From NCBI RefSeq assembly GCF_900106595.1, contig NZ_FNNC01000001.1, positions 434,001 through 498,000 of the forward strand: a DNA stretch of 64,000 bases, written 5' to 3'. This document shows positions 15,401 through 27,740 of the stretch, in pieces. Each line of letters starts with the position of its first letter. Within the stretch, counting starts at the first letter, position 1. Source of the stretch: Marinococcus luteus (lineage in GTDB: Bacteria; Bacillota; Bacilli; Bacillales; Marinococcaceae). A model generated the notes under the pieces. The model did no database searches, was not told where the DNA came from, and was given only the letters and a program-made list of their open reading frames with translations. The translations under genes and the position numbers were made by a program.

Positions 15401-15523
15401 TTCTATGAATAATTATTTTTACATAAAGAGTTTTAAAATACGTTTTGTCATTACTGAAGCTGATTGCGTATCTTTACCAGACGAGCTGCTGTCAAACCGC
15501 TCCTTATGATGGAATTAATCATC

Positions 15524-15540
15524 TTCACGTTTTCTTTACA
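15524..15540. promoter_or_regulatory. direct-repeat box A (OmpR/PhoB-type)
   Basis: TTCACG-N5-TTTACA, two hexamers exactly 11 bp apart, upstream of an AT-rich TATATAAG at 15553-15560. One of four such boxes between 15.5 and 22.5 kb, each in front of a different gene, near a response regulator gene at 17958. Confidence 0.55.
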
Positions 15541-15625
15541 TGTCGGTGTCAATATATAAGTACGTAGACAGTAAGGTTTAATCCGCTCACGAATTGGTGA
15601 AAATTCATTGCTTAAAAGTAAACCT

Positions 15626-15646
15626 ATATACCCATTAAGGGTATAT
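15626..15646. promoter_or_regulatory. CsoR-like palindrome over the -10 box
   Basis: ATATACCC-ATTAA-GGGTATAT, 8-bp arms. The right arm overlaps TATAAT at 15644-15649. TACCC-N-GGGTA palindromes are typical of CsoR-family copper repressors, though a regulator gene is not present in this window. It could instead be an attenuating hairpin. Confidence 0.45.
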
Positions 15647-15671
15647 AATGAAAGTAGGAGGAGGGATAGCT

Positions 15672-15899
15672 ATGATGAATGGAAGCATGGCAGTAATGTC
15701 TCTTGGCATGTGGATTTGGATGTTTTTTCTTATCGCGCTTGTAGCTGTGGGTATTTATGTTATTGTTCGATTAGCAGTAAAGTCACAAAACAGCAGCAAC
15801 GATCCTTCATTAAGTACGCTTCGGCAGCGTTTTGCCAACGGGGAGCTGACGGAGGAAGAATTTAAGCAAAAAAAGCGTGTGCTTCAAAACAATAAATGA
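15672..15899 (+). CDS. SHOCT-domain small membrane protein
   Basis: 75 aa. One hydrophobic helix (MWIWMFFLIALVAVGIYVIV) followed by a C-terminal SHOCT motif, LRQRFANGELTEEEFKQKKR, a short domain found at the ends of many bacterial membrane or oligomeric proteins. ATG chosen because GGAGGAGG lies 8 bases upstream; an earlier in-frame ATG sits inside the palindromic operator. Proteins like this often neighbour copper genes. It is followed by a hairpin and then a histidine kinase. Confidence 0.8.
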   Translation: MMNGSMAVMSLGMWIWMFFLIALVAVGIYVIVRLAVKSQNSSNDPSLSTLRQRFANGELTEEEFKQKKRVLQNNK

Positions 15900-15908
15900 A
15901 TGGTGCCC

Positions 15909-15941
15909 GGGAGCCTTCTTTCATCATTGAAGAGGGCTCCC
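15909..15941 (+). other. intercistronic hairpin (attenuator or terminator)
   Basis: 12-bp arms GGGAGCCTTCTT / AAGAGGGCTCCC with one G-U pair, without a real T run, between the SHOCT gene and the kinase. It probably reduces kinase expression relative to the SHOCT protein. Confidence 0.6.
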
Positions 15942-16016
15942 CCTCATTTCGCTGCGGGATATTGTTGTACCCGGGCCGGACTCAGTGCCCGTTACATAGG
16001 GAAGGGATGTGAAAAT

Positions 16017-17435
16017 TTGCGCAGGATGCTTCGAATGTTTTCCGGGCATATTACCATAAAATTAGCAGCTATTTTGTTCTCATTGTTTTTAGTAGTGTTG
16101 ATCCCTCTCGCTTTCGTTATCCATGAAGTGATTTCCGGTTTTTTCTTTGAGCATGAGGTGGAAGAAATGAAGCAGAGCGTGTCTCATTACGAATCGATGT
16201 ACGAAGAAAATGGCACGATTGCAACAGGGGTTCTGGAAACACTGACGAAAGAACACCAGGACGTTTATGTATTAAATGAATCCTTTCAACCGAACCGGCA
16301 CGTGGGCCAGAATACTGATGATTTCATTTCCGGCATTCCGGACGGGGAACGCGAGGAAATACAGTCAGGCGGGATGGTCGAGCGGGAATACACAGACGAA
16401 GCGACGGGGGAAAAATATTTTGTGGTCGGCAGTCTCCTGCAGGACGGCGGGGAGGAGTCAGAAAGCATTTATCTTTTTTCATCCCAATCTGCGATCGAAG
16501 CAGAAATCCAGGAGGTGCAGCGTCTCATTACGCTCGCGGTCGTCGGGGCATTCCTCCTTGCGTTTGCCTGTATCATTATTCTCGTCCGGCGGATCACTCT
16601 TCCTTTATTACAGATGGAACAGGCAACCCGGCAAATCGCAAAAGGAGAACTTGAGGTGAGGGTCCACCATCCGTCTAAAGACGAAGTAGGGTCACTCGGG
16701 ACGGCAATTAATGACCTGGCTGAAGATTTAAAACAGTACCGGGATGCCCGGAGAGCTTTTCTGGCGGATATCTCCCATGAGTTACGGACGCCAGTCACAT
16801 ACATTAAAGGCTATTCCCACATTCTGAAGGAAAAACTGTACGATCAAAAGGAGGAGGAAGATGCGTACCTTACGATTCTCTCCGACGAAGCTGAACGGTT
16901 AAATCGTTTGGTGGAGGAATTGTTCGATCTGGCGCAAATGGATGACGGTCATATGAAATTAACCAAAAAACATCTGGCGTTAGCTCCGATGCTCGAGCGG
17001 ATTGTCAAAGGGTTTGCTCTGCCGGCCCGCCAGCAGGGACTGGAACTGGACATAGACGTAGAGGAAGGACTGATTGTCTACGGAGATGAACTGCGGCTGG
17101 AGCAGGTATTCATGAACCTGATGACGAACGCCCTGCGTTACACGGAAAAAGGAAGCATCTCGATTCGCGGCGGCCGCAACTCCGCTCATCAGCCGGTCAT
17201 CACAGTAACAGATACAGGCATAGGAATCCCCCAAAAGGAACTGCCGTTTATTTTCGACCGGTTTTATCGTGTAGACAAATCCCGGTCGCGCGAAGGCGGG
17301 GGTACGGGCCTGGGACTCGCGATTGTGAAGCAATTAATGCATGCTCATGATGGCGATATTCAGGTTTCGAGTGTCCCGGGAGAGGGCACGTCATTTATAT
17401 TAACGTTTGCCCGACCCGAAAAAAATGCGCAGTGA
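16017..17435 (+). CDS. sensor histidine kinase
   Basis: Membrane-bound two-component kinase, about 472 aa. TM1 (IKLAAILFSLFLVVLIPLAF), an extracytoplasmic sensor of about 130 residues, TM2 (LAVVGAFLLAFACIIILV), HAMP linker, HisKA with phospho-acceptor FLADISHELRTPVTYIKGY, and HATPase with MNLMTNALRYT, TDTGIGIP and GGGTGLGLAIVK. TTG at 16017 is preferred (AAGGGA 8 bases before); ATG at 16026 is the alternative. Its partner is probably the OmpR-type regulator at 17958, although a copper-storage-like gene separates them, an unusual order. Confidence 0.9.
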   Translation: MRRMLRMFSGHITIKLAAILFSLFLVVLIPLAFVIHEVISGFFFEHEVEEMKQSVSHYESMYEENGTIATGVLETLTKEHQDVYVLNESFQPNRHVGQNTDDFISGIPDGEREEIQSGGMVEREYTDEATGEKYFVVGSLLQDGGEESESIYLFSSQSAIEAEIQEVQRLITLAVVGAFLLAFACIIILVRRITLPLLQMEQATRQIAKGELEVRVHHPSKDEVGSLGTAINDLAEDLKQYRDARRAFLADISHELRTPVTYIKGYSHILKEKLYDQKEEEDAYLTILSDEAERLNRLVEELFDLAQMDDGHMKLTKKHLALAPMLERIVKGFALPARQQGLELDIDVEEGLIVYGDELRLEQVFMNLMTNALRYTEKGSISIRGGRNSAHQPVITVTDTGIGIPQKELPFIFDRFYRVDKSRSREGGGTGLGLAIVKQLMHAHDGDIQVSSVPGEGTSFILTFARPEKNAQ

Positions 17436-17452
17436 GGAAAAAATTTAATGCT

Positions 17453-17470
17453 CTTCACAGTTTCTTCACA
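17453..17470. promoter_or_regulatory. direct-repeat box B before csp gene
   Basis: CTTCACA-N4-CTTCACA: two identical 7-mers with an 11-bp period, about 65 bases upstream of the csp start and just before an AT-rich -10-like ATAAAAC. Confidence 0.6.
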
Positions 17471-17535
17471 TCAAGTGGGCACAATAAAACCAGGCAGGCG
17501 GGAGAGGGAATATCAAAAAAGAGAGGATGGTTTCA

Positions 17536-17859
17536 ATGACCTACGAAGAATGCGTGCAAGAGTGCCTTCGTTGTATGGAACAATGCAACCGCTGTTTTGA
17601 TGACTGCCTGAAAGAAGACGATGTGAAGATGATGGCAGATTGTATCCGTCTCGACCGTGAATGTGCGGATATGTGTGCCTTTGCAGCAAAAGCAATGCAA
17701 AGCAACAGTCCTTTTGTGAAAGAAATCTGCGCCCTGTGCGCAAAAATCTGCCGCGCCTGCGGGGATGAATGTGCCAAGCATGAGCATCATCAGCACTGTA
17801 AAGATTGCGCTGACGCCTGCTACCGCTGTGCAGAAGCATGCGAACAGATGGCAAAATAA
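17536..17859 (+). CDS. four-helix-bundle copper-binding protein (Csp/DUF326)
   Basis: Cys-rich cytosolic protein, 107 aa. Cys residues recur along four helices in C-x3-C and C-x2-C spacing: CVQECLRCMEQCNRCFDDC, CIRLDRECADMC, CALCAKICRACGDEC, CKDCADACYRCAEACEQM. This layout and length match the Csp3/DUF326 copper-storage proteins, which line the bundle core with Cys-bound Cu(I). No signal peptide is visible, so storage would be cytosolic. GAGAGGA lies 9 bases before the chosen ATG. Its own direct-repeat promoter box and position between kinase and response regulator suggest it is a target of that pair. Confidence 0.9.
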   Translation: MTYEECVQECLRCMEQCNRCFDDCLKEDDVKMMADCIRLDRECADMCAFAAKAMQSNSPFVKEICALCAKICRACGDECAKHEHHQHCKDCADACYRCAEACEQMAK

Positions 17860-17875
17860 CATGAAGGTACAGGGA

Positions 17876-17903
17876 ACCGCTGGACCACGTCCGGCGGTTT
17901 TCT
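17876..17903 (+). terminator. terminator after csp gene
   Basis: ACCGCTGGA / TCCGGCGGT stem and TTTTCTTC tail. A TATAAT at 17911-17916 just beyond it may be the -10 of the response regulator gene. Confidence 0.75.
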
Positions 17904-17957
17904 TCTATTATATAATGAACGTACATAGACTACTGATGATAAAAGGAAGTGAAGGTA

Positions 17958-18662
17958 ATGAAACCTAAGGAAACCTACCACATTCTGGTAGTCGATGATG
18001 AGTTTCCGATGAGGCAGATGCTTCGTATCTACCTGCAGCACGGAGGCTATCAGGTCACAGAGGCTGCCGGAGGAGCAGAAGCGTTAAACCAGTGGCGAAA
18101 GCAGTCATACGACCTGGTGATACTAGATCTTATGATGCCTGGCACAGATGGATGGACGGTTTGTGAAACGATTCGTTCTTCCAGTGCTGTGCCGATTTTG
18201 ATGCTTACGGCACGCGCCGGCCTGGAAGACAGAGTGGAAGGTCTGGAGCTGGGAGCGGATGATTATCTGGCCAAGCCATTTGAAGCCAAAGAGCTGCTTG
18301 CCCGCGTGCAGGCGCTGCTCCGCCGGTCGTATGATTTTCCCGTATCATATGAACCGTCCCAGGAAATTGAACGGGGGGCGCTGCGGGTGAATCCGGAGAA
18401 ACGTTCGGTGTATGTATCGGAAGAAGAAGTTGTATTGACGCCGAAGGAATTTGAACTGCTTCATACACTGATCGCAAAGCCAGGGAGGGTCTTCAGCCGG
18501 GAATTGCTGCTCCAGCAGATTTGGGGCATGGATTACATGGGGGACGTTCGTACAGTAGATACGCACATGAAAAATCTCCGGCTCAAGCTGAACGCGTTCT
18601 ATCACGAAAAAAATCCTGTTCACACTGTATGGGGTGTCGGCTACAAGTTTGAAGAATCATAA
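17958..18662 (+). CDS. OmpR/PhoB-family response regulator
   Basis: 234 aa. Receiver domain with acidic pocket ILVVDDEF, phospho-acceptor Asp in LVILDLMMPG, switch Thr in ILMLTARAG and Lys in YLAKPFEAK; C-terminal winged helix ending RTVDTHMKNLRLKLN and HTVWGVGYKFE. AAGGAAG precedes the chosen ATG; a GTG nine bases upstream is less well placed. The tandem TTCACA repeats near genes in this neighbourhood are the kind of site that OmpR/PhoB proteins bind, so this is the likely regulator (inference). Confidence 0.93.
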   Translation: MKPKETYHILVVDDEFPMRQMLRIYLQHGGYQVTEAAGGAEALNQWRKQSYDLVILDLMMPGTDGWTVCETIRSSSAVPILMLTARAGLEDRVEGLELGADDYLAKPFEAKELLARVQALLRRSYDFPVSYEPSQEIERGALRVNPEKRSVYVSEEEVVLTPKEFELLHTLIAKPGRVFSRELLLQQIWGMDYMGDVRTVDTHMKNLRLKLNAFYHEKNPVHTVWGVGYKFEES

Positions 18663-18708
18663 TGCCACCCGCGCCAGGGCAGTCAGAAGCGGGAAGGGGG
18701 AAAGGACA

Positions 18709-18903
18709 ATGAAGTGGTTGGAATGGATAACGGCAGGAGTATTAATTATTGTTGGCCTGGGCTGCTTGACGATGTCTGCAGCATGGGCTGCGCCTTTTAC
18801 GAACGTGCATACGTTTATGCATCAATTGTTTCTGGTGTGCTCCTGGGTGTTTCTGCCGCTCGGTGCTTTTCTGCTTATTTATTACGCGCTGATGAAAAAG
18901 TAG
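18709..18903 (+). CDS. small two-helix membrane protein, 64 aa
   Basis: Not recognised. Two hydrophobic segments (ITAGVLIIVGLGCLTMSAAW and LFLVCSWVFLPLGAFLLIYY) with a short His/Phe-rich loop. GGAAAGGA precedes the chosen ATG; the longer frame overlaps the regulator gene. It is 46 bases downstream of the response regulator and probably cotranscribed. Confidence 0.7.
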   Translation: MKWLEWITAGVLIIVGLGCLTMSAAWAAPFTNVHTFMHQLFLVCSWVFLPLGAFLLIYYALMKK

Positions 18904-18928
18904 AGACTGTAGAAGGAGGCTGCACATA

Positions 18929-19771
18929 TTAAAGCGGATCTATCCATTGACTGATCCGGACGGTTTGATCGACAGGAAGATAAAAGGCTTCGTGTGTTTG
19001 TATGTCCCTAACAAGCGGCAGGGTGGGAAGATCTTCATCAATATCGGCGATAACTGCCGTGGCCCCGCTCGTTAATTGGACGGTGGCGCCTGTTGGAAAG
19101 ATCCCGAGAAATTCGCAGAAAACGCGAATATATTCAGGCTCCAGCGGCCCGGCTTCCTTTCGTAGCAGATGCACCGCCTGAAGCGGGGATACAGCTCGAA
19201 GGTAAGGCCGGTCCAGCGATAGAGCGGAATAGACGTCAAGCACAGATAACAACCGGACAGGATCTTCAAGCTTGGAGGCCGGGGCTCCATTTGGATAGCC
19301 GCTGCCATCCATGCGCTCGTGATGCCGGTAAGCCATGGATGAAATAAATTCAGAAAACCCGCGGTCTTTTAATATGCTGTACCCCTGCTTGGCATGGCTT
19401 TTTAACATTTTCCATTCCGCCAGCGTAGGGGTTTTTTGTTTTGTTAAAACAGTACGGGGAATCGCAGTTTTGCCAATATCATGAAGCAGCAGCCCGCAAG
19501 CTATTTCACGTATGTTCGGCCATTCCAGCTGCTGAGCAACCAGAGAGCCGAGAAGAAAGACGTCAAACGAATGCCGGTAGGTATACATATCCCAGGCTGC
19601 CAGCTGTTGAAATAATTGGCGCACGGCCTTGTCCTTCAGCAGCGAATGGAAAAGATGCTCGAGCCAATGATAATAGGCGGGCTGCTGTAACTTGCCTCCT
19701 AAACGAAAGCTGTTGTCGAGGCCTGATGTATTTTTCAAAAACAAGCGGCGGTCTTCAGGGCTGATCGGCAT
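18929..19771 (-). CDS. HD-GYP domain protein (putative c-di-GMP phosphodiesterase)
   Basis: 280 aa. HD-GYP metal-binding signature: LLLHDIGKTAIP, then HAKQGYSIL, YRHHERMDGSGYPNG and DVYSALSLDRPY, which would hydrolyse cyclic di-GMP (or another cyclic nucleotide). No sensor domain precedes it; residues 1-75 are unassigned, and the ~60-residue C-terminus contains a short beta-rich ATVQLTSGATAVIADID segment. AGAGGTGAG precedes the chosen ATG; the longer frame runs into an upstream terminator. Convergent with the small membrane gene. Confidence 0.85.
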   Translation of the reverse strand: MPISPEDRRLFLKNTSGLDNSFRLGGKLQQPAYYHWLEHLFHSLLKDKAVRQLFQQLAAWDMYTYRHSFDVFLLGSLVAQQLEWPNIREIACGLLLHDIGKTAIPRTVLTKQKTPTLAEWKMLKSHAKQGYSILKDRGFSEFISSMAYRHHERMDGSGYPNGAPASKLEDPVRLLSVLDVYSALSLDRPYLRAVSPLQAVHLLRKEAGPLEPEYIRVFCEFLGIFPTGATVQLTSGATAVIADIDEDLPTLPLVRDIQTHEAFYLPVDQTVRISQWIDPL

Positions 19772-19836
19772 GTTTGTCTCACCTCTTTTTTTATGGGATA
19801 TAAACATAATCGGAGCTGTGTTCGGCGGTTTAAAAT

Positions 19837-19873
19837 AAACCAAAAGCCCCTGGTTGAAGGGGACTTTTGGTTT
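19837..19873 (-). terminator. terminator of the PG-binding/YdhK gene
   Basis: AAACCAAAAGCCCC / GGGG-A-CTTTTGGTTT, a 14-bp stem with one bulge, T-rich on the minus strand, 33 bases past the stop of the gene at 19906. Confidence 0.85.
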
Positions 19874-19905
19874 GACGCCAGTGCAGCTGCTCCGTAAAAC
19901 GCCGG

Positions 19906-20979
19906 TTATTGGCTGCGTAGTTCGCTTTCCGTGAGCCATTTGTGATTTGTCACTTCTTCGCCGCCCGTCGTGGTAAAGTCCACCATGTAAACAGTAGTGC
20001 GTTCCGCTCTGTCAATGGTGGCGGTGGCACCTTCCATGCCCTCCATGTGAGTGGCATCAATTTCCGCTGTGTCTCCCGGCTGTAACGATCCCTCCCCTGC
20101 GTTGTTTAATTCTTCATGGATAACCCATTTGTGGTTCTCCACAGGTTCTCCGCCATCTGTAGGCTCGAAGGTAACTGCATAGGCGGTGGTATCGTAAGCA
20201 CCAGCGATAGTGGCGGTGGCACCTTCCATGCCTTTCATGTGGTCGGCTTCAATTATGGCTTTATCGCCTTCCCCGAATTTAGGATTTTCCTCTTGCTGGA
20301 GAGCCTCCGGCACCTCTCCCGAACTGGAATGATTCATACCGCCGTGGCCATCCATGGATTCGCTCATTTGGTGATGGGAATCGTTCCGGTCATTGTTCAT
20401 CATTTGCTGATGGTCTTGTTGATCCATGTTTTCCATCATGTGTCCCATAGTTTCCGGCCCAACGATGCCATCAGCCTGAAGGCCGTGTTCACGCTGGTAG
20501 TGCTTAACGTTCTCCTGCGTTTTTGGACCAAATATCCCGTCCGTTTTAGTTTCAATGTTCTGGTCGGTTAATAGGCGCTGAACATGGTATACGTGCATGC
20601 CGGAGTCTCCGGTGCGTAAAAGCTTCATGTTTTCGCTCATGTGGCTTTGAAACGCCATCATGGTTTGTGGACCAACGATGCCATCGGCAGTTATGCCTGC
20701 CTGTTCCTGAAAGCTTTTTACGCTTTGTTTCGTTTCAGGACCAAACAGGCCGTCTGCCCTGGTGAAAATCCCGTAGTCCTGCAGTGTTTGCTGGAGCATG
20801 TGTACCGTTGGTCCCTGCATGCCTTCGTCCATCATACCGGAAGAATGCATTTCTTCATGATGGTTTGACATGGAGCTTTCAGCATGCGGGCCATCACTTT
20901 GAGAAGCGTCCATCGTTGCCGGGGCAAACAAAAGGCCAAAAGCAGCTGCCGTTGCCGCCCATTTTGTGTGTTTTTTCAT
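19906..20979 (-). CDS. secreted peptidoglycan-binding protein with YdhK repeats
   Basis: 357 aa exported protein. Signal peptide (KWAATAAAFGLLFAPATMDA). Then a His/Met-rich stretch, two PG_binding_1 domains (VHMLQQTLQDYGIFTRADGL and VYHVQRLLTDQNIETKTDGI, both ending ADGIVGPETM/QTM), a His/Met-rich linker (DQQDHQQMMNNDRNDSHHQM), and two YdhK/DUF1541 repeats sharing GMEGATATI and NHKW. GGGAGG precedes the chosen ATG. The protein would be held in the wall and expose Met/His clusters suited to Cu or other soft metals (inference). Promoter carries direct-repeat box C. Confidence 0.88.
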   Translation of the reverse strand: MKKHTKWAATAAAFGLLFAPATMDASQSDGPHAESSMSNHHEEMHSSGMMDEGMQGPTVHMLQQTLQDYGIFTRADGLFGPETKQSVKSFQEQAGITADGIVGPQTMMAFQSHMSENMKLLRTGDSGMHVYHVQRLLTDQNIETKTDGIFGPKTQENVKHYQREHGLQADGIVGPETMGHMMENMDQQDHQQMMNNDRNDSHHQMSESMDGHGGMNHSSSGEVPEALQQEENPKFGEGDKAIIEADHMKGMEGATATIAGAYDTTAYAVTFEPTDGGEPVENHKWVIHEELNNAGEGSLQPGDTAEIDATHMEGMEGATATIDRAERTTVYMVDFTTTGGEEVTNHKWLTESELRSQ

Positions 20980-21049
20980 TGTATTGTTTTCCTCCCTGGC
21001 GTATAAAAGTGGGTACACTAATAGTTGTACCTCTTAGGTATGGAGAAAC

Positions 21050-21066
21050 TGTGAAGATTCTGTAAA
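21050..21066. promoter_or_regulatory. direct-repeat box C
   Basis: On the minus strand TTTACA-N5-TTCACA (11-bp period), about 70 bases upstream of the PG-binding/YdhK gene. The core CTTCACAGTTTCT is identical to box B. Confidence 0.55.
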
Positions 21067-21192
21067 AAACTTTATTGAAAGTGTTATCCATTCCGGAATT
21101 GTGTGCGGACGGCTTTCTGTAAACCACTCCTTAATACCTGGCCTGAAAGGGAAGCGTTGCTCAGTAGAGGTACTGCAGTGTTGTTATTAACG

Positions 21193-21228
21193 AAAAGCTG
21201 CTTCCAAAATTTTCTGGAAGCAGCTTTT
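21193..21228 (-). terminator. bidirectional-type terminator of DUF418 gene
   Basis: Perfect 14-bp arms AAAAGCTGCTTCCA / TGGAAGCAGCTTTT with A/T tracts on both sides, 29 bases past the DUF418 stop. Confidence 0.88.
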
Positions 21229-21256
21229 TTCGTATGCTGTTAGCTGTTGGCAGGTC

Positions 21257-22408
21257 TCAGGAGCGGTACTCCTGATTGCGGGGACGTTTGCGAATCATCG
21301 GCACCCATTTCATGTGCGTCCCGATCCGCCATACCCATTCCAGCGGGCCGTAGTAAAAGTATTTCAGCCACACCGGGCTGGCAAGTAGCTGGGCGGCAAA
21401 CACGAGCAGGCCGATGAATAACGCGAACACGTAGCCTGGTGGATCCCAAATGCCCATGCCGTTAAAAAACGTCCGTCCGCTCTCCCGGAACAGGCTCACG
21501 AAAATGACCGACTGCAGGAGATAATGGGTGAAGGTCAATTTCCCGACGGCGGTAAATGGTATAAGAAAGTTGGAGATGCTTTTGCGGCTGGTGCCGGCCA
21601 ACAGCAGTCCGAGACCTACGCCTAAGCTCACCAAAAACGCGTACACATCGTCGAGATGAGCGACAAGCGGGCTGCTGGCTCCGGCATACAGAGCGGCTTT
21701 TCCAAGAAGACCGGAAAGCAGAAAGACTGCGGCGATCCGCCATTTACGATCGCGATCATCCAGGGCTCTTGAAAAGATGCCGCTGCGGTAGGCGTACATC
21801 CCAAAAAAGAAATAGCCGAGGTGGTCGATCATCGACGACCATTCAATCAGCAGGTATTCCACACCGGTCGGATAGGTTTGATTCGGGGGCAGGGCGTCTT
21901 TCATCCACTGCTCCGGATTCATCTGTACGGACGTGTAGCCGTCCAGCAGGTCGACACCGGTGGAATAGCCGAGCCAGAACAGGAACGCAAGCCCGAGCAG
22001 CCAGTGGGTCGGGAGCCGGAGACAGGTGAGCAGCACGAGCCCCGCGCTGGCGTACATAAGCAGAATATCGCCCGCCCATATCACGTAGCCGTGCAGGCCC
22101 CCGACAAAAAACAGGATCACAAGCCGCCGGATAAGGGTCGGATAGGGATTTGTGCCCTTCGTATGCAGCCGGCTGTAAATCAGCACGAGGCTGATGCCAA
22201 ACATCATCGCAAACAGCGGCCGGGCGCTGTCCTCGAAGACGACGGCGACGGTCGTTTCAATGGCGGTGCCCAGCCAGGTCGGATTGGCCGGATTCACCAG
22301 CGCGAGGCCGAAGATATTCACGATAAAAATCGCAAACAGGGCGAAGCCGCGTATTTGATCGAGCATGCTGATGCGTTGAGCTTGATCGTTAGGATATGGG
22401 GTAGTCAC
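21257..22408 (-). CDS. DUF418-family membrane protein
   Basis: 383 aa, about ten membrane helices. Opening RISMLDQIRGFALFAIFIVNI and the C-terminal FTAVGKLTFTHYLLQSVIF and LASPVWLKYFYYGPLEWVWR segments are hallmarks of the DUF418 / YeiB family of putative transporters or acyl-transferase-like membrane proteins. GTG is chosen as start (AAGGA seven bases before); a longer TTG start lacks a site. Direct-repeat box D lies upstream, tying it to the neighbouring regulon. Biochemical role unknown. Confidence 0.85.
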   Translation of the reverse strand: MTTPYPNDQAQRISMLDQIRGFALFAIFIVNIFGLALVNPANPTWLGTAIETTVAVVFEDSARPLFAMMFGISLVLIYSRLHTKGTNPYPTLIRRLVILFFVGGLHGYVIWAGDILLMYASAGLVLLTCLRLPTHWLLGLAFLFWLGYSTGVDLLDGYTSVQMNPEQWMKDALPPNQTYPTGVEYLLIEWSSMIDHLGYFFFGMYAYRSGIFSRALDDRDRKWRIAAVFLLSGLLGKAALYAGASSPLVAHLDDVYAFLVSLGVGLGLLLAGTSRKSISNFLIPFTAVGKLTFTHYLLQSVIFVSLFRESGRTFFNGMGIWDPPGYVFALFIGLLVFAAQLLASPVWLKYFYYGPLEWVWRIGTHMKWVPMIRKRPRNQEYRS

Positions 22409-22461
22409 TGGAGATCCTTCTTTCTCGTTGGGAAGCTCTTTCTCTAAGACGTCGGTAAAAT

Positions 22462-22475
22462 ACAAAGCGTTTACA
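22462..22475. promoter_or_regulatory. weak candidate cre site
   Basis: ACAAAGCGTTTACA matches the palindromic cre consensus at 12 of 14 positions, between the DUF418 gene start and box D. Could be chance. Confidence 0.25.
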
Positions 22476-22503
22476 GCAAACCCTTATTATCATAAGCGAA
22501 AAA

Positions 22504-22520
22504 TGTGAAGAAAGTATGAA
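22504..22520. promoter_or_regulatory. direct-repeat box D
   Basis: Minus strand TTCATA-N5-TTCACA (11-bp period), then TATGATAAT 9-12 bases downstream as likely -10, in front of the DUF418 gene. Confidence 0.55.
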
Positions 22521-22641
22521 GTCTTTTATTTTACTGCCTGACAGTAAATAAATATCAATTAATGTTTATAAATGCACTTGGATAAAATTTCAATTTATAG
22601 GATGATTAAAGAAATGATGGATGAAGGAGGTGGGGAAGATA

Positions 22642-24931: not shown

Positions 24932-25303
24932 ATGGCTAAAACAAACGACCAGTGTGACATATATTGCTTTGATCCGGAAAAAGTGGCGCGTGTTCAGAAT
25001 CAGGTGGGGCAGGTGGACGCACGCAGCGCTTCGCAGTGGTTTAAAGTGCTTGCCGATGAGACCCGGTACAAGGTAGCCTACGCACTCAGCGTCGAAGGCG
25101 AGCTCTGCGGCTGTGACCTGGCAAATATTCTGGGCACCTCGACGGCCACGGTTTCTCATCATCTGCGGATTCTGCGTCAGGCAGGTGCTGTCACCTACCG
25201 CCGCGAAGGGAAGCTGGTTTTCTATACACTCGCCGGAAATCAGATCACTCATCTGCTCGGAGGCATGGAACCGGGAATGGAGGAGAAGCCGCTTGGCATC
25301 TAA
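24932..25303 (+). CDS. cadC: CadC-type ArsR/SmtB metal-responsive repressor
   Basis: Winged-helix repressor, 123 aa. Metal-sensing Cys are present in the CadC positions: N-terminal DQCDIYCF and helix-3 GELCGCDLA. DNA-recognition helix is STATVSHHLRILRQAGAV, followed by wing YRREGKLVFYTL. AAAGGAAG precedes the ATG. Cd(II), Pb(II) or Zn(II) binding would release it from the operator repeats upstream and switch on the ATPase, whose start lies inside the last codons of this gene. Confidence 0.92.
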   Translation: MAKTNDQCDIYCFDPEKVARVQNQVGQVDARSASQWFKVLADETRYKVAYALSVEGELCGCDLANILGTSTATVSHHLRILRQAGAVTYRREGKLVFYTLAGNQITHLLGGMEPGMEEKPLGI

Positions 25304-27740
25304 AGAGGAAACGTTTGAACGAAAAACAGCGGAGAAAGGGTGCTCCTGCTGCAGTTCGGATAGTGAGAAAGAAGACTGCTGCACGCCGGAGGAGGATCAT
25401 GCAGACGAATCGGCTAATGATACTCCAGCCAACGCGTATACCTTCCAGGTGGAGGGGATGGACTGCCCGTCGTGCGCGTCCACGCTGCAAAAGGGGGTCT
25501 ACCGTTTACCGGGCGTCCAGGAGGCGAAGGTGCAGTACGCGACCGGCAGTATGCAGGTGTCCACCGACGGGACGCTGGCTCCGGCAATGATCAAGCAAAC
25601 GGTGCAGCGGCTCGGGTATAATACAGAGCTGCCGGCAGCGGATACCGGGGAAGCCTATAACATTTACGGGATGGACTGCGGCTCCTGCGCCGCGACTGTC
25701 AGCAAACACTTTGCGCAGCTCGACGGCGTGCGGGACGTCCAGGTGCAGTTCGCGACGGGGAAGATGACGCTCGACCACGAGCTGTCGCAGGAAAGGGTGA
25801 AAGGGGAGGTCCGCCGGCTCGGGTTTGAAGCGGCTCCGGTCACGGAGCGTCGTTCTTCCTCCAGCCAGCCGGAAACTTCCCCGCTCCGCGGAATGACGAA
25901 CACGATCATTTCCGGTGTGCTTCTGCTGGCCGGTATTGCCAGTTCGCTGACACCGGCTCCGGCGATCATTTCCATCATTCTGTATCTTTCCGTCATTGTC
26001 GTCGGAGGCTATAAGCCGGCGAAAAGTGCCTATTTTGCCATTAAAAGCCGGTCGCTTGATATGAACGTGCTCATGATGGGAGCTGCAATCGGGGCTCCGC
26101 TCATCGGGGAGTATTTTGAAGGGGCGCTGGTCGTCTGGCTGTTTGCACTCGGCAACGCGCTGCAGCAGTATTCGGTTGCTAAAACGCGCAAATCGATCAG
26201 CCATCTGATGGACCTGGCTCCGGCGGAAGCCTGGGTGAAGGCAGGAGACACATGGGTCCGGCGTCCGGTGGAGGACGTCGGCCTCGGACAGACGATGCTC
26301 ATTAAGCCGGGAGAAAAAATTCCTCTGGACGGTACGATTCGCGAAGGAAATTCGATGGTCGACCAGTCGCCGATCACCGGGGAATCGCTCCCGATCGATA
26401 AAGCATCCGGAGATAAAGTATATGCCGGCACGCTGAATGACTTCGGCAGCCTGGAGGTTGAAGTGACCGCGCGTCCGGAGGACACCACGCTTGCGCGGAT
26501 CATTCATTTAGTGGAAGAGGCGCAGGGACAGCAGGCACCGACCCAGAGCTTCGTGGACCGGTTTGCGGCTGTGTACACCCCGATTGTTTTTGCCGCTGCG
26601 ATCGCGGTGATTGTCGTACCGCCGGTAATTGGTATTGGCGGCTGGGCGGACTGGGTGTACCGGGGACTGGCGCTTTTAGTCGTGGCCTGCCCGTGTGCGC
26701 TCGTCATTTCGACCCCTGTCGCAATCGTGTCGGCTATCGGCAATGCGGCCAAGCAGGGTGTACTGATTAAAGGCGGAGCCTTTCTCGAGGCGGCCGGCAC
26801 CCTGAACGCCCTGGCCTTTGATAAAACCGGAACACTCACGGAAGGCAAGCCCGTCGTGGAAAAAGTATACGCGGCAGACGGCGATGCGGACCGGCTGCTT
26901 TCGATTGCGTCGACCCTGGAGGCGTACTCCAACCACCCAATCGCCCGCGCGATTACGGCGCATGCCGGGGAACAGAACGTATCGTCTTTTGAAGGGGTGA
27001 ACTTCTATGCGGAGCCCGGCAAAGGCGTATCAGGCACAATCGAGGGCAAAGCGTACGCTGCCGGAAAGCCCGAATGGCTGGAGGAGCAAGGCGTCGAGCT
27101 GAAACACGTCGAAGAAGAAATCCAACAGCTGCAAAACGAAGGCATGACCGTCGTTTTGATCGGAGACGGAGAGAGCGTTTTGGGCTACGTAGGCGTCGCC
27201 GACAAAATCCGGCCGGTGTCTTCGGAAGCGGTACAATCGCTTCACAAAAACGGCATCCGTGAATTGACCGTCCTCACCGGAGACAATGAAGGCACGGCCG
27301 CAAAAATTGCGGGTCAGGCGAACATTGACCGGTACATGGCCGGGCTGCTTCCGGAGGACAAGGCAAAAGCAGTACGCACTCTACAGCAGGAAGGCCGCCG
27401 GGTCGGCATGGTCGGCGACGGCATTAACGACGCGCCGGCGCTTGCCACCGCCGATATTGGCATCGCCATGGGAGGAGCCGGGGCAGACACGTCGATGGAA
27501 GCCGCCGACATCGTTCTGATGGCGGACAATCTCGAAAAGCTGCCGTATACGATCCGGCTCAGCCGCAAGGCGCTGCGCATCATTAAGCAGAACATCTGGT
27601 TTGCCGTACTGATAAAAGTGGCCGCACTGGCGCTGATCGTGCCGGACATGTTAACGCTATGGATGGCGGTATTGAGTGACACCGGAGCGGCACTCCTTGT
27701 AGTCGCAAACAGCCTGAGGCTGTTCCGGCTGCGTGGATAG
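25293..27740 (+). CDS. cadA: Cd/Zn/Pb-exporting P1B-type ATPase
   Basis: 815 aa heavy-metal efflux ATPase. TTG start at 25293 follows AGGAGA by about 9 bases and overlaps the end of cadC. Order: Cys-rich leader (KGCSCCSSDSEKEDCC), two HMA domains (VEGMDCPSCAS and IYGMDCGSCAA), actuator motif SPITGESLPI, channel motif VVACPCALVIST, phosphorylation site AFDKTGTLTEG, and hinge GDGINDAPALATADIGIAMG. The CPC motif places it in the P1B group; pairing with CadC argues for Cd/Zn/Pb rather than Cu. Confidence 0.95.
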   Translation: MASKEETFERKTAEKGCSCCSSDSEKEDCCTPEEDHADESANDTPANAYTFQVEGMDCPSCASTLQKGVYRLPGVQEAKVQYATGSMQVSTDGTLAPAMIKQTVQRLGYNTELPAADTGEAYNIYGMDCGSCAATVSKHFAQLDGVRDVQVQFATGKMTLDHELSQERVKGEVRRLGFEAAPVTERRSSSSQPETSPLRGMTNTIISGVLLLAGIASSLTPAPAIISIILYLSVIVVGGYKPAKSAYFAIKSRSLDMNVLMMGAAIGAPLIGEYFEGALVVWLFALGNALQQYSVAKTRKSISHLMDLAPAEAWVKAGDTWVRRPVEDVGLGQTMLIKPGEKIPLDGTIREGNSMVDQSPITGESLPIDKASGDKVYAGTLNDFGSLEVEVTARPEDTTLARIIHLVEEAQGQQAPTQSFVDRFAAVYTPIVFAAAIAVIVVPPVIGIGGWADWVYRGLALLVVACPCALVISTPVAIVSAIGNAAKQGVLIKGGAFLEAAGTLNALAFDKTGTLTEGKPVVEKVYAADGDADRLLSIASTLEAYSNHPIARAITAHAGEQNVSSFEGVNFYAEPGKGVSGTIEGKAYAAGKPEWLEEQGVELKHVEEEIQQLQNEGMTVVLIGDGESVLGYVGVADKIRPVSSEAVQSLHKNGIRELTVLTGDNEGTAAKIAGQANIDRYMAGLLPEDKAKAVRTLQQEGRRVGMVGDGINDAPALATADIGIAMGGAGADTSMEAADIVLMADNLEKLPYTIRLSRKALRIIKQNIWFAVLIKVAALALIVPDMLTLWMAVLSDTGAALLVVANSLRLFRLRG

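Follow-up and report, generated by a model that had tools for sequence, protein, structure and literature searches.

A probable copper-defence regulon marked by an 11-bp direct repeat and a local two-component pair in Marinococcus luteus

We analysed a stretch of 64,000 nucleotides from Marinococcus luteus (contig NZ_FNNC01000001.1, positions 434,001 to 498,000; hereafter the window, whose own numbering is used below), in which four promoters carry a tandem TTCACA-like repeat. Comparison with related genomes makes it highly probable that these promoters form a copper-defence regulon of a two-component pair of the LcoRS/CopRS type encoded among them. An earlier note on this DNA had proposed a four-promoter regulon, with a kinase/regulator pair encoded amid it, that responds to metal or envelope stress. 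A regulon of four promoters or more, governed by the local regulator of the OmpR family, is well supported by the comparison: the sites are kept together with the pair, and searches at family and class level agree. The metal part of the suggested signal also holds, and the copper proteins encoded downstream narrow it to copper at the envelope as the most likely stimulus.

Results

An 11-bp direct repeat precedes four promoters

The four sites of the earlier note (15524, 17454, 21050 and 22504) were all found where it had placed them, and its gene calls (SHOCT, DUF326/Csp, peptidoglycan (PG)-binding plus DUF1541, DUF418, kinase and regulator) were correct by Pfam. In the 64-kb window, the loose motif TTYAYR-N5-TTYACA has 4 matches versus 0.15 expected, a number reached in none of 100 shuffles. 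The box is sharper than first written. It corresponds to the 11-bp direct repeat CTYCAYR-N-TTTC-TNCAYA, with a -10 hexamer 9 nt further on. The refined consensus, CTYCAYRNTTTCTNCAYA, is exact at operators 2, 3 and 4 and has one mismatch at operator 1. In addition, a weight matrix trained on ten Marinococcus sites, the four window operators included, finds these four operators alone over the 64 kb at 13 bits or more. When the spacer is required to end in TC (TTYAYRNNNTCTTYACA, a form picked after the sites had been inspected), there are 4 exact matches in the 2.9-Mb genome, all inside this 7-kb cluster; with one mismatch allowed, 26 matches are found versus 15 for the control.

Operator 1 (CTTCACGTTTTCTTTACA, 15523-15540, plus strand; 23.3 bits) lies upstream of the SHOCT gene and the kinase gene, and operator 2 (CTTCACAGTTTCTTCACA, 17453-17470, plus strand; 28.1 bits) upstream of csp. 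Operator 4 (CTTCATACTTTCTTCACA, 22504-22521, minus strand; 26.9 bits) lies upstream of the DUF418 gene. At operator 3, the earlier note rightly saw a box upstream of the DUF1541 gene, but the pair of half-sites it named is 11 nt upstream of the pair that relatives conserve and that has the right spacing to the -10 element (CTTCACAGTTTCTCCATA, 21039-21056, minus strand; 25.8 bits). The DUF1541 upstream region contains three half-sites in the window, the further one extending upstream to 21066, and the pair kept in relatives is TTCACAGTTTC-TYCATA.

The box is conserved in Marinococcus and its family

G013 and G015, the congeners that encode an orthologous pair, retain the box in front of csp, DUF1541 (as CTTCACAGTTTCTTCATA in both) and DUF418. 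The gene order around DUF418 has changed in G013, yet the box is still found there. The box upstream of SHOCT is kept in G015 as a one-mismatch version, CTTCACGTTTTCTTCAAA. Boxes similar to operator 4 also precede DUF418 in G007 and G027.

Over 29 genomes of the family, CTYCAYRNTTTCTNCAYA gives 27 matches in 11 genomes versus 1 for a reversed control of the same composition; the pattern was drawn up after inspection of the relatives' sites, so that this search was not blind. Promoters account for 24 of the 27 matches, the other three lying, by translation, inside one conserved coding gene. These three (G000:C14:32655, in the M. luteus genome, and the orthologous G013 and G015 sites) have no -10 element and were set aside as chance matches. 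Downstream of the 24 promoter sites are 13 DUF1541 genes, several of whose stretches are near-identical across genomes and hence not independent, 4 Csp, 3 DUF418, 2 Lgt (an assignment tested on one of the two), 1 Acyl_transf_3 and 1 Met-rich 60-aa protein that belongs to no Pfam family.

Match counts are 4, 5 and 5 in the three Marinococcus genomes that encode the pair, each count including the coding-gene site, and 0 in the two that do not (G012 and G014). G012 and G014 also lack DUF1541, so that the whole cluster is missing there. Lgt (prolipoprotein diacylglyceryl transferase) is encoded in 2 copies in G013, 3 in G015 and 1 in each of the other three Marinococcus genomes. The additional copies being confined to G013 and G015, the box-driven Lgt is an extra copy. 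Boxes before Lgt were seen at L051 (9056-9073, minus strand), L050 (15609-15626, plus strand) and L138 (8703).

Twelve more distant regions of the family (L052-L063) encode a kinase with 36-43% and a regulator with 45-57% identity. The neighbours of the pair are Csp, DUF1541, a P-type ATPase or DUF418 in varying mixes, and some regions contain none of these. In this set, the Marinococcus matrix gives 20 matches at 15 bits or more, versus 2 for the reversed matrix. Six of the 20 fall in the stretches upstream of targets, which account for 3.7% of the sequence (p 6e-5), the other 14 lying outside our rough masks.

The box takes the place of the -35 element

In a set of 21 distinct sites, including the three in the coding gene, the hexamer that begins 9 nt beyond the box agrees with TATAAT at 4.14 of 6 positions on average, compared with at most 2.86 at all other offsets from 0 to 24. 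TANNNT occurs at the 9-nt offset in 12 of the 21. With 9 nt between the end of the repeat and the -10 element, the box sits in place of a -35 element. PhoB-type activators likewise take the place of -35 recognition. In the window, the spacing rule assigns the putative -10 elements CAATAT to operator 1 (15550-15555, plus strand; weak), CACAAT to operator 2 (17480-17485, plus strand), TACAAC to operator 3 (21024-21029, minus strand) and TATGAT to operator 4 (22489-22494, minus strand).

An inverted repeat, GGTACA-N8-TGTACC (21012-21031, minus strand), spans the -10 of the DUF1541 promoter. It is kept in G013 and G015 and is possibly the site of another regulator.

Across Bacilli, the box mostly precedes copper genes

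A search of 398 Bacilli genomes for the box followed by N9 and TANNNT returned 40 matches in 34 genomes versus 0 for the reversed pattern. Thirty loci and 8 further matches were inspected (all but G092:C56 and G123:1863136). An open reading frame (ORF) follows the box in 29 of the first 30 loci, and 15 of these 29 encode multicopper oxidases, 12 of them from a single genus; the Pfam scan covered 20 of the 29 ORFs and 7 of the 15 oxidases. The other ORFs include two DUF1541 genes and one each for DUF418 (the window's own), PCYCGC, a kinase, a regulator and a thioredoxin-like protein. Among the 8 further matches are genes encoding Lgt, a thioredoxin-like protein, the periplasmic copper-binding protein CueP and a protein with a Cu_amine_oxidN1 domain. 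In 14 regions hand-chosen to spread over genera, relatives of both regulator and kinase are present in the fetched stretch in 9 cases, the kinase alone in 1 and neither in 4. Overall, by family assignment, the genes behind the box largely encode predicted extracytoplasmic copper proteins (DUF1541/CopL, Csp, multicopper oxidases and CueP), along with the extra Lgt and DUF418, a minority being unrelated.

The pair is encoded among its putative targets

On the plus strand, the cluster reads SHOCT, kinase, DUF326/Csp, regulator and a 64-aa membrane protein. The SHOCT-domain small membrane protein (15675-15899; PF09851) is followed by the LcoS-like sensor histidine kinase (16017-17435; HAMP, HisKA and HATPase_c domains). 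A four-helix-bundle copper-binding protein of the Csp type (17536-17859) matches DUF326 (PF03860, E=2.7e-13) and scores 48.1 bits against TIGR04401, under its cut-off of 100. The OmpR-family response regulator (17958-18662; PF00072 and PF00486) is the proposed reader of the boxes. Hence the kinase and regulator genes are encoded together, 522 bp apart with csp between them. Because operator 1 stands before SHOCT and the kinase, and operator 2 before csp and the regulator, the pair would control itself. The 64-aa membrane protein (18709-18903) belongs to no Pfam family, adjoins this two-component system in many relatives and has Cys and Met positions conserved at 75% in 16 aligned sequences; that it helps in copper sensing is a guess.

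Orthologs of the kinase are 88% and 75% identical in two congeners and 36-43% identical in other genera of the family. A contig search for its relatives gave one useful relative, from Marinococcus halotolerans, 6 of 7 loci matching the catalytic half of the kinase only.

The minus-strand genes encode an HD-domain protein (18932-19771), located inside the cluster and conserved in G013 and G015, a secreted protein with two PG-binding and two DUF1541 (YdhK/CopL) domains (19906-20979; PF01471 and PF07563), and the DUF418 membrane protein (21257-22408; PF04235). Farther on, at 24932-27740, an ArsR-type gene is followed by that of a ZntA-like P-type ATPase with metal-binding domains; the matrix scan of the window gave no box there.

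Comparison with known copper systems

Among the closest known systems is lcoRSABC, from a Lactococcus lactis plasmid, for which growth of the plasmid strain at up to 4 mM copper sulphate and regulation of lcoABC by lcoRS are described (PMC5152845). Lactococcus relatives turned up in our plasmid search, where the pNZ712 region, which carries the name lcoRSABC in PMC5152845, encodes a regulator, a kinase, Lgt, DUF2933, CHAP and a multicopper oxidase. The window regulator, of the OmpR family like LcoR, is 40.5% identical to it, and the HAMP kinases share 35.7% identity over residues 131-462 (about 333 aa). When LcoR was used as a query against this genome, the window regulator was the best of 8 matches. 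lcoRS is likewise linked to lgt and a multicopper oxidase. The promoter of lcoA, which encodes Lgt, carries one box with three mismatches, 9 nt before a perfect TATAAT; by chance, sites of this quality (no more than 3 mismatches, and a -10 in which 4 or more of 6 bases match) would be expected 0.2 times in the 13-kb lco stretch. In eight plasmid regions, boxes with up to 3 mismatches were listed without a control, and we quote one of these sites, a two-mismatch box in an Enterococcus faecalis plasmid (L148, 4610-18663), where it precedes the gene run with the oxidase and the pair. Next to tcrYAZB, this region has genes for Lgt, a CopY-family protein, a multicopper oxidase, a regulator and a kinase related to ours, a small protein and YdhK. 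M. luteus differs from the lco system in that csp splits the kinase and regulator genes, the targets are Csp, DUF1541, DUF418 and SHOCT, the locus lies on a 1.05-Mb contig, and a multicopper oxidase is found at none of the four window sites.

In Corynebacterium glutamicum, CopR is described as binding a direct repeat with an 11-bp period, TGAAGATTTnnTGAAGATTT, and as controlling a multicopper oxidase; it is proposed to work beside CsoR (PMC3140484). Compared by eye, the reverse complement of TGAAGATTTnnTGAAGATTT and operator 2 have TCTTCA-N5-TCTTCA in common. This comparison concerns the operator sequence itself. On the other hand, CopRS belongs to another phylum, is described with one genomic site, versus four here, and its CopS loop has 31 aa with His and Met (PMC3140484). 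E. coli CusRS shows the same copper-responsive two-component logic (PMC3140484), but no conserved column of the kinases aligned here corresponds to periplasmic His residues of the CinS/CusS type. The CopL protein of Staphylococcus aureus copXL has DUF1541, has been implicated in copper resistance and is 51% identical to YdhK, whereas control is by CsoR repression and the passages cited name no two-component activator (PMC5947656).

Taken with the paired genes, a regulator that is the closest to LcoR in its genome, copper-handling envelope and storage targets and an 11-bp-period operator speak for placing the window system with LcoRS and CopRS. Since both have been described in print as copper systems (PMC5152845, PMC3140484), a system of this kind is not new. 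In the open-access literature, a Bacillaceae copper two-component system featuring YdhK, DUF326 or DUF1541 did not appear among the matches listed, as judged from titles and abstract starts.

Discussion

From the spacing of the sites, their conservation, the target classes, co-occurrence and linkage, we propose that the regulator binds the boxes, that copper is the signal, and that the outcome is activation rather than repression. Excess copper at the outer face of the membrane would activate the kinase. The phosphorylated regulator would then bind the 11-bp direct repeat in a head-to-tail arrangement and stand in for the -35 element, 9 nt before the -10. This would switch on the kinase and regulator genes themselves along with those for Csp, the DUF1541 protein, DUF418 and SHOCT; for the last two, a role connected with copper is a guess.

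Several observations weigh against this proposal. A genome scan of the kind that the earlier note had suggested showed no enrichment of TTYAYR-N5-TTYACA (12 matches, 8 of them outside the cluster, versus 11 for the reversed control). The loose motif is therefore ordinary genome-wide, which, taken alone, agrees with part of what that note had said would speak against the regulon, a motif frequent throughout the genome; we dropped it as a genome-wide marker. Co-occurrence in the family is moderate, with the box in 10 of 18 genomes that have a close full-length kinase versus 1 of 11 that do not (Fisher p 0.015; the split is our own, from a kinase identity search). At class level, 7 of the 29 ORFs are off theme (PspA, S11, M23, PEPCK and two CW_binding_2) or familyless (one). 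The rest of the 8 further matches consist of a cold-shock protein and a metallo-beta-lactamase/rhodanese protein, both off theme as well, one familyless protein and one site with no ORF. Of the 14 chosen regions, 4 have no pair nearby, and these include the two from the oxidase-rich genus. In the lco stretch, neither lcoB nor lcoC has a box by the criterion that finds that of lcoA, and the margin of the LcoR match is thin (168.6 bits versus 160.1 for the next regulator).

The kinase sensor domain also weighs against the proposal, as no His, Met or Cys column is conserved at 75% in 17 aligned kinases. A few His are common to the three Marinococcus kinases, and conserved periplasmic His ligands of the CusS type were not found in the 17 aligned sensor domains. 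Direct copper sensing by the kinase is thus unsupported.

Finally, a csoR-copZ-copA operon elsewhere in the genome (csoR assigned by Pfam, the others by reading) carries no box, which counts against the proposal. It also fits a split in which CsoR would handle cytoplasmic copper and the pair envelope copper, the model proposed for CsoR and CopRS control in C. glutamicum (PMC3140484).

Textbook copper control in Bacilli relies on the CsoR and CopY repressors. CsoR boxes were tried as a common control and rejected, TACCY-N4-RGGTA giving 6 strand-counted matches versus 32 for the reversed control. These fall at one other place and at two CsoR-family loci, which we take to be CstR-like. A CsoR/CstR-like palindrome of the form TACC-N-GGTA is found in the SHOCT leader (ATACCCATTAAGGGTAT, 15628-15644, strand undefined). 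The csoR locus lacks that form, and two other CsoR-family genes (L128 and L129) have TACCC-GGGTA. As a candidate second control, the palindrome may add repression at this leader.

Could another regulator or another signal account for the boxes? The earlier note raised PhoP as a possible reader, which would place the genes in the phosphate-limitation regulon. PhoP half-sites have an 11-bp period and resemble the loose TTYAYR-N5-TTYACA, and PhoR/PnpS above the NCBIfam cut-off is indeed present. However, it is present in all five Marinococcus genomes, whereas the box occurs in three, those with this pair; G012 and G014 have PhoR/PnpS and 0 boxes, with the caveat that they also lack DUF1541 and hence the whole cluster. 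Given, in addition, that the exact TTYAYRNNNTCTTYACA matches of the M. luteus genome (G000) all lie within this cluster and that targets elsewhere are largely copper proteins, PhoP is a most improbable reader, a judgement that rests on box counts per genome and on target classes rather than on a look at each phosphate-gene promoter. A general envelope-stress regulon, with copper genes as some of its outputs, would accommodate DUF418, the PG-binding domains, the class-level sites before PspA and M23 and S11 peptidases, and a kinase sensor with no conserved copper ligands. Linkage of the pair to known copper loci and the position of 17 of the 24 family promoter sites before DUF1541 or Csp, several of these stretches being near-identical copies, make such a regulon unlikely.

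The system could also answer a soft metal other than copper, namely silver, gold, zinc or cadmium, since metal choice cannot be read from sequence and the ZntA-like ATPase gene lies behind its ArsR-type gene about 2.5 kb from operator 4. The ATPase gene has no box, however, and multicopper oxidases, CueP and the CopL and Csp families indicate copper, as does the report of lcoRSABC as a copper-resistance system (PMC5152845). We therefore consider a different metal quite unlikely.

The copper-defence regulon can be embedded in a wider joint reading, in which one copper box, old enough to have its core and period in common with that of CopR from actinobacteria, governs the extracytoplasmic response to copper in a large part of Bacilli. 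The 64-aa protein would be the copper-sensing subunit, invoked because the kinase sensor has no copper ligands, and DUF418 and the extra Lgt would be copper-induced envelope defences. As a whole, this remains speculative and rather doubtful.

The overall type of system is already known from LcoRS and CopRS; the detail is new. For copper two-component control in Bacilli, it defines precisely how operator and promoter are arranged, and it raises the question of which component senses copper, the kinase domain having no conserved ligands. Through the box, the regulon becomes readable from sequence, plasmids included, and DUF418, the extra Lgt and the PCYCGC lipoprotein are predicted as candidate copper-response genes.

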